NCBI GenBank assembly: GCA_004524515.1
Contig: SDNV01000097.1
Coordinates: 1 to 9,988 of the forward strand
Direction: 5' to 3'
Length of the DNA stretch: 9,988 nucleotides
Source: Promethearchaeota archaeon
GTDB taxonomy: Archaea > Asgardarchaeota > Lokiarchaeia > Sigynarchaeales > SOKP01
The translations under genes and the position numbers were made by a program. The notes beneath the pieces were generated by a model. That model was not told where the DNA came from. It saw only the letters and a program-made list of their open reading frames with translations, and searched no databases. Positions 3,148 to 7,856 of the stretch are shown here, one piece after another (the stretch's first letter is position 1; every line of letters starts with the position of its first letter).

Positions 3148-4104
3148 ATGGAATTGTTCCAAGTATTCTGGGACGACCAAAGAAATTTATTTTTAGAGTT
3201 TAAAAAAGATGAAGAGGAAAACCAACTCTTTCTTCCAGAAACGGTGAAGCGAATTAATCTTCGCTATGAAATCTCCCGAGTTTTTAAACATGATAACTAC
3301 CAAAATCAAATTCCTCAATTAATTTCAATTAAAACGATTTATTTTTTTAATGACTTTATGGCTTTTTGTATTGATTTAAGTGAAATTAATGATACAGAGG
3401 AAGTACAAATCAAAATTTTAAGTCTAACAATTTTTTTATATTCAGGTCATAGAATGGAATATTCAATTAAAAGCACGTATATCTTATCGGAAATCTGCAT
3501 AAATGAAGAATGTTATGCAAATTTCAGTTATGAAGAGATCAATACTGAAAATAAAGCCACTTCAGAAAGATCAGCCACTCAAGAGAAATTCTATCATGAA
3601 TTTGAAACGGACTTCAAAAATCATAAAGAAAGAGGAAGATTTATTTACGAAAAAAGTGGAGTGAAAAATATAACTAAAAATGATCCAATGATGTCTTTAA
3701 TCCAAGCGAATACGAATGCAATTAATTGTATTGTTGAACAATTAAAAGAATTAAATTCTACTTTAAAAAATATATCCGCGAATAATATTGGATATATATC
3801 TCCCGGACTTTCGCAAGGTGGACCGCCTAGAAGGCTTGAAAGTGCAATTAAACCAAAAACTAAAATACATATAAAACCTCCCGGACAATTACCATTTATA
3901 CCTGAACTAAAAGAGATTTTTGGTGATAGCGAAAAATTTAAGAGCTATTTAAAACCCATGAGCGAAAGTGATCTAAAAGCTATCACCCTGAATGATGAGG
4001 AATTAGAAAAAAAGCAAGTGCAGGCAATTAAAAGACAAATTAAACGTTTAGAAAAAGAAGAATCTGAAATGATTGAGTTAGCGGATTTAAAAAAGCCAGA
4101 TTAA
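3148..4104 (+). CDS. Unrecognised 318-residue protein with Pro/Lys linker and C-terminal helix
   Basis: I do not recognise this family. The N-terminal part (about 1-125) alternates hydrophobic strands (FQVFWDD; IKTIYFFNDFMAFCIDL; IKILSLTIFLY) and looks like a compact alpha/beta or beta-rich domain. A charged region follows (about 130-180). Then comes a heptad-like helix (SLIQANTNAINCIVEQLKEL, from about 183), a Gly/Pro/Lys linker with IKPKTK (234-239) and KPPG, and a charged C-terminal helix (about 272-312) ending in a lysine-rich tail. There is no signal peptide or transmembrane segment, so it is probably cytoplasmic, and the helices suggest oligomerisation or partner binding. The same layout, including IKPKTK, occurs in the GIFT-domain protein further along the strand. 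The start is the first ATG, preceded by catatataag; GAGG at 3131-3134 is too distant for a good ribosome site. Confidence 0.7.
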   Translation: MELFQVFWDDQRNLFLEFKKDEEENQLFLPETVKRINLRYEISRVFKHDNYQNQIPQLISIKTIYFFNDFMAFCIDLSEINDTEEVQIKILSLTIFLYSGHRMEYSIKSTYILSEICINEECYANFSYEEINTENKATSERSATQEKFYHEFETDFKNHKERGRFIYEKSGVKNITKNDPMMSLIQANTNAINCIVEQLKELNSTLKNISANNIGYISPGLSQGGPPRRLESAIKPKTKIHIKPPGQLPFIPELKEIFGDSEKFKSYLKPMSESDLKAITLNDEELEKKQVQAIKRQIKRLEKEESEMIELADLKKPD

Positions 4105-4236: not shown

Positions 4237-5013
4237 ATTCTTCTAAATTATTTTATAGGTACAGCAGGTTCTGGCAAATCCACTGTAACTGGTGAATTAA
4301 AGGCATATATTTTGAACCGGGATCCCGAAGTCTCGGCAATTACCTTGAACTTAGATCCCGGTGTTAAAGTAATTCCCTATATTCCCGATATTGATATTCG
4401 AGATTTTATAGTATTAGAGGAGATTATGGAGGAGTATGGATTAGGTCCTAATGGTGGGATGATCTTAGCCAGTGATTTAATGGTCAATTATTTAGATGAT
4501 TTAAGGAATGAAATTGATGAGTTTAATCCTGACTGGGTCTTGGTAGATACTGCTGGACAATTAGAACTTTTTGCGTTTAGAGAAACTGGACCGTTAATAG
4601 CAAGTTCATTAGGTTTTGGGGATATCCAAAAATCAGTATCTTTCCTTTTCGATGCTAATTTTACGCTTCGACCAAATGGCTTTATTTCTACGTTATTATT
4701 AGCTGCTTCTGTACAATTTAGATTCAGAAAAATATCTCAAATTAATGTGCTTTCTAAGGTAGATCTTTTAGATGATGACCAAATAGATATGATAGTAAAC
4801 TGGTCTCAAGATTTTAAAGCTTTAGAAGAATCTACAAGTGAACGTGAGAGTGGATTAATTAGAGAATTATCTATGAATTTATCTGAAGTCTTTGTTGAGA
4901 TGGGTTCAACAGCAGAATTAATTCCTTGTACAATTAAACGGGAAGATGGACTCGATTTACTATTTGGTTATTTACAAAGAATTTTTGATTCGGATAAATC
5001 AAAATTTTATTAA
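4237..5013 (+). CDS. GPN-loop GTPase, apparently starting at ATT
   Basis: This is a SIMIBI-class GTPase of the GPN family. In eukaryotes GPN1-3 help assemble and import RNA polymerase II; archaeal members are homodimers of poorly known role. Numbered from ATT 4237, motifs are: P-loop GTAGSGKST (8-16), G2-region NLDPGVKVIPY (38-48), the family's Gly-Pro-Asn insert (70-72, in GLGPNGG), G3 DTAGQLE (104-110), and SKVD (173-176) for guanine. At 258 residues the length is right for the family. The in-frame upstream TAA at 4207 leaves no ATG or GTG before the P-loop. The first TTG, at 4312, would delete the P-loop. ATT at 4237 gives the family's usual short leader strand (residues LLNYFIGTAG) and has GAGGAG 7 nt upstream, so I place the start there. 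A sequencing error that removed an ATG is the alternative. Confidence 0.85.
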   Translation: MLLNYFIGTAGSGKSTVTGELKAYILNRDPEVSAITLNLDPGVKVIPYIPDIDIRDFIVLEEIMEEYGLGPNGGMILASDLMVNYLDDLRNEIDEFNPDWVLVDTAGQLELFAFRETGPLIASSLGFGDIQKSVSFLFDANFTLRPNGFISTLLLAASVQFRFRKISQINVLSKVDLLDDDQIDMIVNWSQDFKALEESTSERESGLIRELSMNLSEVFVEMGSTAELIPCTIKREDGLDLLFGYLQRIFDSDKSKFY

Positions 5014-5110: not shown

Positions 5111-6208
5111 ATGAAAATCATTGGTCCAATTGCAGGGATTGGCTCTCGTTTACGCCCTTTTACATTAAGCAAGCCTAAAGCATTTATCACCGTGGCGGGG
5201 AAAACAGTAGTTGATCATATTCTAACCAGTTTTAGTAATACTTTTGATCCAGAAACGGAATTAATTCTCATAGTGGGTTACAAAAAAAGACAGATTATTG
5301 ATTATATTACTAAAAATTATGATGATAAATTTAAACTAAAATTTGTTGAACAGGTTCCAAGAGGATATAGGGATAATGTCCCATACTATTGGGGTTTAGG
5401 TGAAGCAGTATATTTGGCTCATAAAAGATTTAGAAAAATTACGTATGAAAACAGAGAAGAAGATAAACGTGAAGGCTCATTGATTTTTCTAGGAGATATG
5501 ATAATTCTTGATGAATATTCTTATGTAATGTATCGCTACCATGAATATGATGTGGATGGAATAATTACTGTCATGAGAGTACCAAAGAAAGAAGCTAGTT
5601 CTTATGGAGTAGTTGTAACAGATGATAACAATATTATAACACGATTAGTTGAAAAACCCCCTCAATTTATCTCAGATTTAGCTATTGCGGGAATTTATGC
5701 GTTTTCACATTCTACTAGTTTAGCTCTTTTTAAAAATATTAAAAGATACTTAGATAAGAGAACCAATGAATCTAAAGAAATATATATGACAGAGAGCCTT
5801 CAAGATTTAGTAGATAATGGATTTAAAATTGCTGCAATTGAACTCAAAAAAGGTATTCTCGATTTCGGTCGACCTTCTGAAGTGTTAAAAGGAAATCAAT
5901 TCCTTTTGGAGCATCAATCGATTAAAAAAGAAGAGTATGAGAATCGAAATATTTCCATCGAGAGAAGTTTTATAAAAAATCCAAATTATATCGGGAAAAA
6001 CACAAAAATAATTAATTCAGTCATAGGACCCCATGTTTCAATTGGAGATGATTGTGTGATAAACAGCTCAATACTTAAGAGCTGTGTAATCGAGAATAAT
6101 GCAAATTTAACCAATGTTATCTCTGAAAATTCTATTATTGGAGGGAATGTAATAATAGAAAATATAAGTAAAGATAATTTGATTATTGGAGATAAATCCA
6201 TTTATTAA
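5111..6208 (+). CDS. Sugar-1-phosphate nucleotidyltransferase with left-handed beta-helix tail
   Basis: This 365-residue enzyme couples a sugar-1-phosphate to a nucleoside triphosphate to make an activated sugar for glycans or glycoproteins. The N-terminal Rossmann-like domain has the signature AGIGSRLRPFTLSKPKA (8-24), the LGDM segment with the likely metal/sugar Asp129, EKPP (181-184), AGIYAF (193-198) and DFGRPSEVL (251-259). The C-terminal part (about 289-360) carries hexapeptide-type repeats (IGKN, IGPHVSIGDD, SIIGGNVII) forming a left-handed beta-helix, as in archaeal long glucose-1-phosphate thymidylyltransferase and mannose-1-phosphate guanylyltransferase relatives. There is no acetyltransferase motif that I can name. 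I cannot tell the nucleotide or sugar from sequence alone. It starts at ATG 97 bp after the GTPase, and a strong hairpin follows its stop, so it likely ends a transcription unit. It is cytoplasmic. Confidence 0.9.
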   Translation: MKIIGPIAGIGSRLRPFTLSKPKAFITVAGKTVVDHILTSFSNTFDPETELILIVGYKKRQIIDYITKNYDDKFKLKFVEQVPRGYRDNVPYYWGLGEAVYLAHKRFRKITYENREEDKREGSLIFLGDMIILDEYSYVMYRYHEYDVDGIITVMRVPKKEASSYGVVVTDDNNIITRLVEKPPQFISDLAIAGIYAFSHSTSLALFKNIKRYLDKRTNESKEIYMTESLQDLVDNGFKIAAIELKKGILDFGRPSEVLKGNQFLLEHQSIKKEEYENRNISIERSFIKNPNYIGKNTKIINSVIGPHVSIGDDCVINSSILKSCVIENNANLTNVISENSIIGGNVIIENISKDNLIIGDKSIY

Positions 6209-6371: not shown

Positions 6372-7856
6372 GTGCCTTATTACATTGCTTTTGATAATTC
6401 CCATAAAGAACGAGCAAGATTGGATGAGAATTTTACAGAATTAAGAGATTATTTAAATGCTAATGGGTTTATCTGCTATAATTTTCTTGAAGTTCCAATA
6501 ACCCAAGAATCTTTAAATCCTTTTGATATTCTTGTAATTGCTTGTCCGGATTTTTCAAAATTATCTCATATCGAGATTATGGAAATTGTAAGTTGGGTAA
6601 AAGAAGATGGAGGAGGATTGCTTTTATTATCTCATGCTGGGGGTGATCGCGGCAGAAATAGCAATTTGAGTGAATTATCTGAGCAATTTGGTATAGCCTT
6701 TGAAAATGATCAAGTACTGGATGATGTAAATAATATTGGAATAGAAAATATGCCCATAATATCTTCTATTAATTTTATTCCTCCACATCCTATTACTAAT
6801 GATGTATCTTCAATATGTTATAGAGCAGGATGTTCTTTAAGTGTGATTGGAAGCGCCATCTCCATTGTTTCCTCAAATGAAACCTCTGAACCATACAGTT
6901 GTCCATTAATGTGTACATCAGAACCAAATAAAGGGAGGGTATGTGCAATTGGAAGCTACGAAATGTTTAGAGACAAAACAGGCGGAGGTTTACAGTATGA
7001 TGACCATCCAATTTTAGCTGCAAATATCTTTAATTGGCTTATATCTGATTATCGCTTGGAATTAACGAACCAAGGTACAGAACATAAATTACCTGTTTCA
7101 GGAAAACCTACGCTGCAAATGGAAGAGTATCAATCCTTAGATGATTCAAACTCTCAGATTGAAAGTATACAACCAGTTGATACTACAATTACTTTCTCTA
7201 CTAAAGCCGATTTACTTAAGATATTAAATAATTATATGAATCAAATTAATATTATAAAAAATTCCATTAATAAATTAATCGAGATAATATCAGAATCAGC
7301 AAATGAAATCTTTACTGAACAAACTGCACAACTTATTCAGGACTCTACTTCCATTAATCCGGATTTTATATATGAACCCTATGAGGACGAAGAAGAGACG
7401 GAAAGTGGTGAGCTACAAACTCAAAGTGATTCAGAGCTAACAAAATTACCTCCCAAACCGGCAGAATTGAAGCAAAAAGGACCAAACACCTCCGAAGAGG
7501 TATTTATCAAACCAATACCTTCAGCTCCATCAAAAATTAGTGAACCTCCTAAACCTCCTAAATCATCTATGATATCAATAAAACCAAAGACGAAATCTAA
7601 ACAATTAGAAGTTAAACCAATAAAAAAAGAAGAGAAAGTCGTAAGAACCATCGATGATTTAACTGCAGAATTAGATAGTTTAGAAAGTAAATCAAATTCT
7701 GTTATAAATCTTATAAAATTCATTGAGAAAAAACATGACGATGGAAAGTTAGATGATAAAACCTACGATAAACAAATTCAAAAGTTGCAGAAAGATTTAG
7801 ATCAGACTAAAAAAAGAATTGAGGAGATAAAAACAACTCTAGGTAAAAAAAGTTAA
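6372..7856 (+). CDS. IFT52-like GIFT-domain protein with coiled coils
   Basis: Residues 1 to about 225 form a class-I glutamine-amidotransferase-like (GATase1/DUF4350-type) domain of the GIFT kind, named after Bacteroidetes GldG and eukaryotic IFT52. Visible marks are YYIAFDNSHKE, a glycine turn GGGLLLLSHAGGDRG (80-94), a following FGIAFENDQVLDDV segment, and GSYEMFRD (194-201), which matches the LGSCHMFSD-type block of IFT52, then a helix ending NWLISD. There is no catalytic Cys-nucleophile elbow that I can see, so it is likely a binding domain. After it come a helix-rich part (about 277-323), an acidic patch (EDEEETESGE), a long Pro/Lys linker (357-425) with IKPKTK, and a charged C-terminal coiled coil (428-494) with no membrane segment. 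IFT52 is a core intraflagellar-transport subunit; here the role is unknown. GTG at 6372 is the first start after an in-frame stop. Confidence 0.75.
   Translation: MPYYIAFDNSHKERARLDENFTELRDYLNANGFICYNFLEVPITQESLNPFDILVIACPDFSKLSHIEIMEIVSWVKEDGGGLLLLSHAGGDRGRNSNLSELSEQFGIAFENDQVLDDVNNIGIENMPIISSINFIPPHPITNDVSSICYRAGCSLSVIGSAISIVSSNETSEPYSCPLMCTSEPNKGRVCAIGSYEMFRDKTGGGLQYDDHPILAANIFNWLISDYRLELTNQGTEHKLPVSGKPTLQMEEYQSLDDSNSQIESIQPVDTTITFSTKADLLKILNNYMNQINIIKNSINKLIEIISESANEIFTEQTAQLIQDSTSINPDFIYEPYEDEEETESGELQTQSDSELTKLPPKPAELKQKGPNTSEEVFIKPIPSAPSKISEPPKPPKSSMISIKPKTKSKQLEVKPIKKEEKVVRTIDDLTAELDSLESKSNSVINLIKFIEKKHDDGKLDDKTYDKQIQKLQKDLDQTKKRIEEIKTTLGKKS

Follow-up and report, generated by a model that had tools for sequence, protein, structure and literature searches.

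A Lokiarchaeial protein with an IFT52-type GIFT domain and its family in Asgard archaea

The locus and the domain layout of the protein

The window, that is, the whole stretch of 9,988 nucleotides that was analysed, carries on its plus strand an open reading frame that starts with GTG at 6372, ends with its stop codon at 7856 and encodes a GIFT protein of 494 amino acids, in the very position given by the original prediction. The start was supported by the MPY found at the same place in most close homologues. The protein begins with an IFT52-type GIFT domain (residues 1-233; 6372..7070, plus strand) and belongs to the family called group A below. A coiled coil and a Pro/Lys linker had been noted behind this domain. 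The structure model placed there, on the same strand, a helix of middling confidence (residues 278-308; 7203..7295; pLDDT blocks 66-79), which is partly conserved in Loki homologues, a Pro/Lys-rich linker (residues 309-426; 7296..7649) and a confident C-terminal two-helix hairpin (residues 427-493; 7650..7850), which was also recognised by a hairpin profile. The linker was modelled with low confidence across most of 310-422, and the alignment of Loki homologues revealed a conserved LPPKP motif in it. NCBIfam gave only weak coiled-coil matches for the protein (E 0.12 or worse), and by hydropathy it is without a membrane segment (highest 19-residue mean 1.53).

The sequence blocks from which an IFT52-like fold had been proposed, GGGLLLLSHAGGD, FGIAFENDQVLDD, GSYEMF and FNWL, were all present. 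They hold columns that were invariant or nearly invariant among 24 homologues and among 23 proteins from many Asgard genomes; such columns include G80, G81, G91, D92, N98, D117, G188, G194, and F199.

In a database search, each of the best 120 among 543 homologues (E <= 0.001) carried the Pfam family IFT52_GIFT (PF23355), and those naming an organism were mostly MAGs of Promethearchaeota, Lokiarchaeota, and Hodarchaeota. Among the matches listed, one homologue (P0050, 72% identity) has a bacterial name, Candidatus Nanopelagicaceae. When GTDB genomes were scanned, 73 stretches matched; 55 of them code for a relative, and these fall into 53 loci. Every one of these loci was assigned to Lokiarchaeota, Lokiarchaeia, Prometheoarchaeum (three) or Harpocratesius (one); the scan patterns were drawn from Loki sequences, so other lineages would be missed. 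The archaeal host suspected from the sequence was thus borne out by both searches, and it is Lokiarchaeial.

The next gene upstream (5111..6208, plus strand) encodes a sugar-1-phosphate nucleotidyltransferase with NTP_transferase and hexapeptide matches in Pfam and NCBIfam. It is preceded by a GPN-loop GTPase (ATP_bind_1 in Pfam; 4312..5013, plus strand) and by a protein with an N-terminal beta-sheet part and a helical tail (3148..4104, plus strand), which was delineated by its structure model and by the same string of genes in other Loki genomes. Since several Loki loci are cut by contig ends, the counts of these neighbours are minima: the nucleotidyltransferase preceded the GIFT gene, in the same orientation, in 50 of the 53 loci, the GTPase was present in 44, and the 3148-4104 protein was near the GIFT gene in 35. 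The last of these had no Pfam family above the cut-off, and fold searches with its model (mean pLDDT 67.6) gave no clear match. A further 18 Asgard genomes were compared (20 loci, of which two came from genomes counted before), and neither the GTPase nor the 3148-4104 protein was found near the GIFT gene there. No ABC transporter partner was detected among the window ORFs scanned. The P-loop of the GTPase, GTAGSGKS, is encoded in frame at 4258-4281, before the first ATG, GTG or TTG (4312), so the true start must precede 4312; either it uses a rarer codon or the sequence contains an error. An ORF on the minus strand (1760-2560) looked DNA methyltransferase-like by eye, and related stretches occurred in 22 of the 53 Loki loci.

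Spread of the family among Asgard archaea

PF23355 was found at E <= 0.001 in 219 of the 227 Asgard genomes, in 209 of them above the cut-off, and in none of the 14 control genomes outside the Asgard phylum. The positive Asgard genomes had 1 to 11 matched stretches each, where one protein can give two. For the grouping of these GIFT domains, the ORFs of loci L054-L182, chosen from the best hits and by hand, were searched with a group A GIFT profile, and 129 hits, or 89 without duplicates, were obtained. They were divided by profile score into group A (n=32, >190, the family of the window protein), group B (n=33, 100 to 165), and group C (n=24, up to 100), which are operational groups because their limits are score ranges. 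A 19-residue mean hydropathy of >=1.6 was reached by 4 of the 32 group A members, by 4 of the 33 in group B, and by 21 of the 24 in group C. Of all archaeal proteins scanned, L093:4793-5998:- (G179) scored best with IFT52_GIFT (100.2 bits); a protein search started from it retrieved no more than L093 itself, which reflects a strict word filter, since group A relatives exist.

With a profile restricted to the GIFT domain, group A was matched at E <= 1e-40 in 160 of the 227 Asgard genomes, 121 of which had one match, and at this level no match was obtained in the remaining 67. Four of the genomes (G120, G124, G161, and G165) gave E values between 1e-40 and 1.6e-55. The genomes without group A at this threshold included runs of neighbouring genomes, e.g., G007-G012 and G036-G049, and this pattern suggests that entire lineages have lost it or carry strongly divergent copies. 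Among 72,556 plasmid records, the group A GIFT domain matched five, and the best of these, at E 0.02, was a haloarchaeal DUF4350 protein. The window protein is a member of a wide Asgard family and no one-off.

IFT52 as the closest relative of the GIFT domain

In hmmscan, the window protein matched IFT52_GIFT with an E value of 9.4e-17, and its score of 61.3 bits exceeds the curated cut-off of 27.2. When the PDB was searched with phmmer, Chlamydomonas IFT52 (5fmr, 3.6e-8; 8bd7, 1.4e-7) and mouse IFT52 (5fms, 4.7e-6) were retrieved, and the next match after these three sequences was at E 0.54. A profile of 23 Asgard proteins (A3) gave 6.2e-25 (91.3 bits) for 5fmr, 1.8e-24 for 8bd7, and 1.3e-21 for 5fms; among the best 60 of 317 PDB sequences with E <=10, the other 57 aligned from profile position 203 onward and were mostly coiled coils. 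The structure prediction agreed with this, since IFT52 was the best fold match (213 aligned residues, 2.4 A, 24% identity) and its crystal structures were clearly ahead of the other folds; the weaker matches comprised ThuA, OST48, GATase1 domains, sugar-enzyme domains, and S1P. In the reverse direction, a search with mouse IFT52 returned rows whose organism names, where given, were all eukaryotic (best 120 of 491 proteins), so prokaryotes were not ranked by it.

In a profile-profile comparison with hhalign, IFT52 aligned best, among the GIFT groups compared, with group A (5.7e-28), followed by group B (1.8e-23), a mixed secreted set (2.3e-13, n=4), OST48-like proteins (1.1e-7, n=2), and GldG-like proteins (8.3e-6, n=3).

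It is very improbable that the window protein is a generic GATase1-like or DUF4350 protein that is no closer to IFT52 than to that superfamily at large. The fold is indeed common to ThuA, OST48, and GATase1 domains, and some group A proteins pass the cut-offs of other families: L103 passes that of DUF4350 (PF14258, 30.4 bits) with 38.1 bits, and L093, L099, and L096 pass that of ABC_transp_aux (PF09822, 34.7 bits) with 37.7, 40.1, and 45.3 bits, respectively. However, IFT52_GIFT was the top-scoring of the compared families in 17 of 17 group A proteins scanned. In the window protein, no match to ABC_transp_aux, DUF4350, ThuA or OST48_N (PF03345, cut-off 36 bits) was found at a limit of E 10, at which the HMMER filters drop most matches >0.1. 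The search of the PDB with A3, the fold comparison, and hhalign likewise contradict a generic assignment. By Pfam scores, PDB sequence profile, fold, and profile-profile comparison, IFT52 is closer than the DUF4350 or GATase1-like families. The GIFT domain of the window protein is homologous to IFT52, which is its best match in sequence and fold among solved structures.

Tails beyond the GIFT domain

IFT52_central (PF23352) had no match in the window protein or in the other archaeal proteins scanned, and Itf52_C (PF21178) had none in the archaeal proteins scanned; the eukaryotic control P0239 gave 1.8e-36 and 5.1e-27, respectively. In 28 Asgard genomes, neither PF23352 nor IFT46 (PF12317) was detected, and the control genomes gave no match either. 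The Loki hairpin had no detectable relation to the IFT52 tails (hhalign probability 0.1). The likeness to IFT52 is confined to the GIFT domain, and judged by its tail domains the window protein is no IFT52.

A profile of the Loki C-terminal hairpin matched 15 of the 31 tails from group A at E <1e-8, with the other 16 short of that level. Nine of the positive proteins (L069, L074, L076, L079, L090, L108, L109, L112, and L178) were not close to the Loki training rows by GIFT identity. None of 32 group B and 21 group C tails fell <0.05, and among 430 control ORFs one reached 2.8e-4.

Descent of IFT52

Three trees were built, all without bacterial GldG or eukaryotic OST48 and with mostly animal IFT52 rows. 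In the first tree (66 rows, columns filled >=30%), the deep branches were unsupported at the base. In a reduced tree, the column limit was set to 60% and ten long or odd rows were left out (C_L122, C_L177, C_L114, C_L091, C_L067, C_L173, B_L158, B_L153, B_L065, and A_L171). Here group A and IFT52 formed a clade (96/87) that group B joined next (95/86), and the OST48-like and GldG-like Asgard proteins stood outside. In a replicate with other group A and B rows, the same column limit of 60%, and the partial Chlamydomonas sequence removed, IFT52 again stood beside group A, joined by the divergent group B protein L169, which was flagged as a long-branch join; a clade of A and IFT52 alone cost 1.46 log units (p 0.2).

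Profile scores and single residues were compared as well. Each of the 10 IFT52 sequences reached a better score with the profile of group A (84-114 bits) than with that of group B (69-95 bits), a gain of 6-21 bits. In an alignment of 24 A, 14 B, and 10 IFT52 rows (window numbering), five residues were common to group A and IFT52 and not to group B, namely E13 (79% of A, 100% of IFT52), K63 (92%, 90%), V115 (96%, 100%), P174 (100%, 100%), and S195 (88%, 100%).

Judged from these alignments and trees, descent of IFT52 from group A is favoured rather than proven. We give an about even chance to the full proposal that IFT52 has its archaeal source in group A. In this proposal the soluble GIFT protein would have passed vertically to the first eukaryotes, where its conserved polar edge changed and tails that thread IFT88/70 and bind IFT46 were added, to yield the central IFT-B1 scaffold. 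In AU tests A + B without IFT52 was not rejected (0.103; cost 4.97, p 0.231), which weighs against a descent from group A. An origin of IFT52 in a different Asgard GIFT branch (group B or one not sampled), which would make group A a cousin, we regard as possible but rather unlikely. AU tests did not reject B + IFT52 in the reduced tree (p-AU 0.141) or in the replicate (cost 4.54, p 0.178), and the joining of L169 to IFT52, with its long-branch flag, also speaks for such an origin. The gain of all 10 IFT52 sequences with group A, the diagnostic residues, the profile-profile scores, and the place of IFT52 next to group A in both reduced trees speak against it. Acquisition of the domain by an Asgard lineage from a eukaryote is most improbable, since beyond the similarity itself nothing was found in its favour, whereas group A occurs in 160 of the 227 Asgard genomes at the level given above, IFT52 neither nests inside nor encloses it in the reduced trees, and many of its members carry a C-terminal hairpin unlike the IFT52 tail.

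Scaffold or ligand-binding protein

In the model, residues conserved in the alignment are placed at the ends of strands or behind them (D8, C58-P59, G90-D92, D117, and G194-Y196), and the edge formed after strand ends is the usual binding edge in such folds. Groups A and B keep D92, D117, H139, and C154, positions at which E, R, R, and A predominate in IFT52, with the alignment at H139 unsure because of an IFT52 insertion nearby. The polar residues kept in archaea and changed in IFT52 can be read in two ways, as an archaeal ligand site that was lost in IFT52 or as a docking face whose partner changed.

The disordered linker and the hairpin favour a scaffold, a role that is probable for the family of the window protein; we infer for the window protein, in line with the original prediction, an adaptor rather than an enzyme. 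As a whole, it is fairly probable that the window encodes a Lokiarchaeial member of a soluble Asgard family, with an IFT52-type GIFT domain, a disordered linker and often a hairpin, which serves as a scaffold with a docking edge. The protein would act as a soluble scaffold whose GIFT domain docks a partner via the conserved edge of post-strand loops, and whose flexible linker and hairpin may bind further partners or form oligomers. Eukaryotes would then have retained the docking domain, altered several polar residues of its edge, and gained new tails, which run through the TPR proteins of IFT-B1. It speaks against a scaffold that the hairpin has no detectable relation to the IFT52 tails and went undetected in about half of the group A tails, as given above.

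Less probable, in our judgement, yet a serious alternative is that the conserved loops of the GIFT domain form a pocket in which a small molecule binds, with a sugar or nucleotide sugar as the probable ligand, and that the protein takes part in glycan metabolism with the neighbouring nucleotidyltransferase, IFT52 being a pocket-less descendant. The conservation of D92, D117, H139, and C154 in groups A and B speaks for it, and the last three could be such a ligand site; the Loki gene order, with a sugar nucleotidyltransferase upstream, points towards metabolism. Sugar-enzyme domains were among the weaker structural matches. Sugar binding has been proposed for GIFT domains before (PMC7226087, citing Beatson and Ponting 2004). 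However, the nucleotidyltransferase was nearby in only two of the 18 other Asgard genomes, at 27-28% identity, and the GTPase in none. C154 is replaced by serine in some group A proteins (L095 and L102), so a strict catalytic cysteine is unlikely, and the long linker and hairpin would be odd for a plain sugar-binding enzyme.

Comparison with known GIFT systems

IFT52 (OSM-6; PDB 5fmr, 5fms, 8bd7), a subunit of IFT-B1, is matched over the whole length of its GIFT domain, and in both proteins a long stretch of low confidence or disorder comes next, before a folded C-terminal part. They differ in that the central domain of IFT52, which threads through IFT88 and IFT70, has no counterpart in the window protein, that a helical hairpin takes the place of the IFT46-binding Itf52_C, and that the archaeal D117, H139, and C154 are replaced in IFT52. 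The IFT52 system is ciliary, and Asgard hosts are not known to have cilia.

A widespread Asgard GIFT family that is IFT52-like is real, and with IFT52 as its best match it provides a concrete archaeal relative of the central IFT-B1 protein. The relevance to a eukaryotic transport complex that had been suggested for this gene is supported in so far as sequence and fold measures both speak for IFT52-type homology of the GIFT domain. If group A is the source of IFT52, a core component of the ciliary transport train would be older than cilia, with an earlier role as a general Asgard scaffold or ligand-binding protein. From the residues kept in archaea and changed in IFT52, a specific prediction follows for the conversion of a docking or ligand site into a scaffold. 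Since members occur in genomes of Prometheoarchaeum sp. (loci L048-L050), a genus with a cultured strain, localisation and partners are testable. The usual account derives IFT from coatomer-like components whose diversification fell between the first and the last eukaryotic common ancestor (PMC6601246, PMC6141808), and IFT-B1 is described as organised around IFT52 (PMC10191852). Among the best matches of a literature search (titles, starts of abstracts, and term counts, with most subscription journals and bioRxiv outside its scope), no paper tied IFT52, GIFT or intraflagellar transport to Asgard or other archaea; Pfam already labels such proteins, so the link is perhaps known to others.

GldG and its Pfam family ABC_transp_aux belong to the same GIFT superfamily as the window protein. 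Some group A members pass the cut-off of that family below their own IFT52_GIFT scores, whereas the window protein does not match it. The GldG-like Asgard proteins L128 and L140 have hydrophobic segments, unlike the window protein, and form a separate branch in the tree.

Asgard group B paralogues measure 293-503 aa, except for the longer L065 and L123, and 29 of 33 stay below the hydropathy threshold, so that they are mostly without a membrane segment, like the window protein. They had 26-34% identity to its GIFT domain in the pairs checked, mostly lack the five residues common to A and IFT52, and had no detectable group A hairpin. In L065 (G086), the group B GIFT domain is fused to a domain that was judged by eye to be protein-isoaspartate methyltransferase-like.

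OST48 / Wbp1, an oligosaccharyltransferase subunit, has an N-terminal GIFT domain (PDB 8b6l, 6s7o, 7oci, 6ezn, 6c26), and its OST48_N is absent from the window protein at the limit given above. The OST48_N cut-off was passed in 2 of 28 Asgard genomes searched, by L113:1036-2787:+ (G062) and L115 (G067), which are candidate OST48 relatives. Each carries a strongly hydrophobic segment close to its C-terminus, and by eye the N-terminus of each resembles a signal peptide; the window protein has neither. L113 scored 42.9 bits with IFT52_GIFT versus 41.5 with OST48_N and also gave a weak cupredoxin-like match. Another protein, L067:199-3630:- (G166), consists of a subtilisin-like protease, a GIFT domain, and a C-terminal hydrophobic segment. 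Its domain order resembles that of eukaryotic site-1 protease, and it matched S1P in the PDB at 2.5e-24, with ordinary subtilisins scoring higher.
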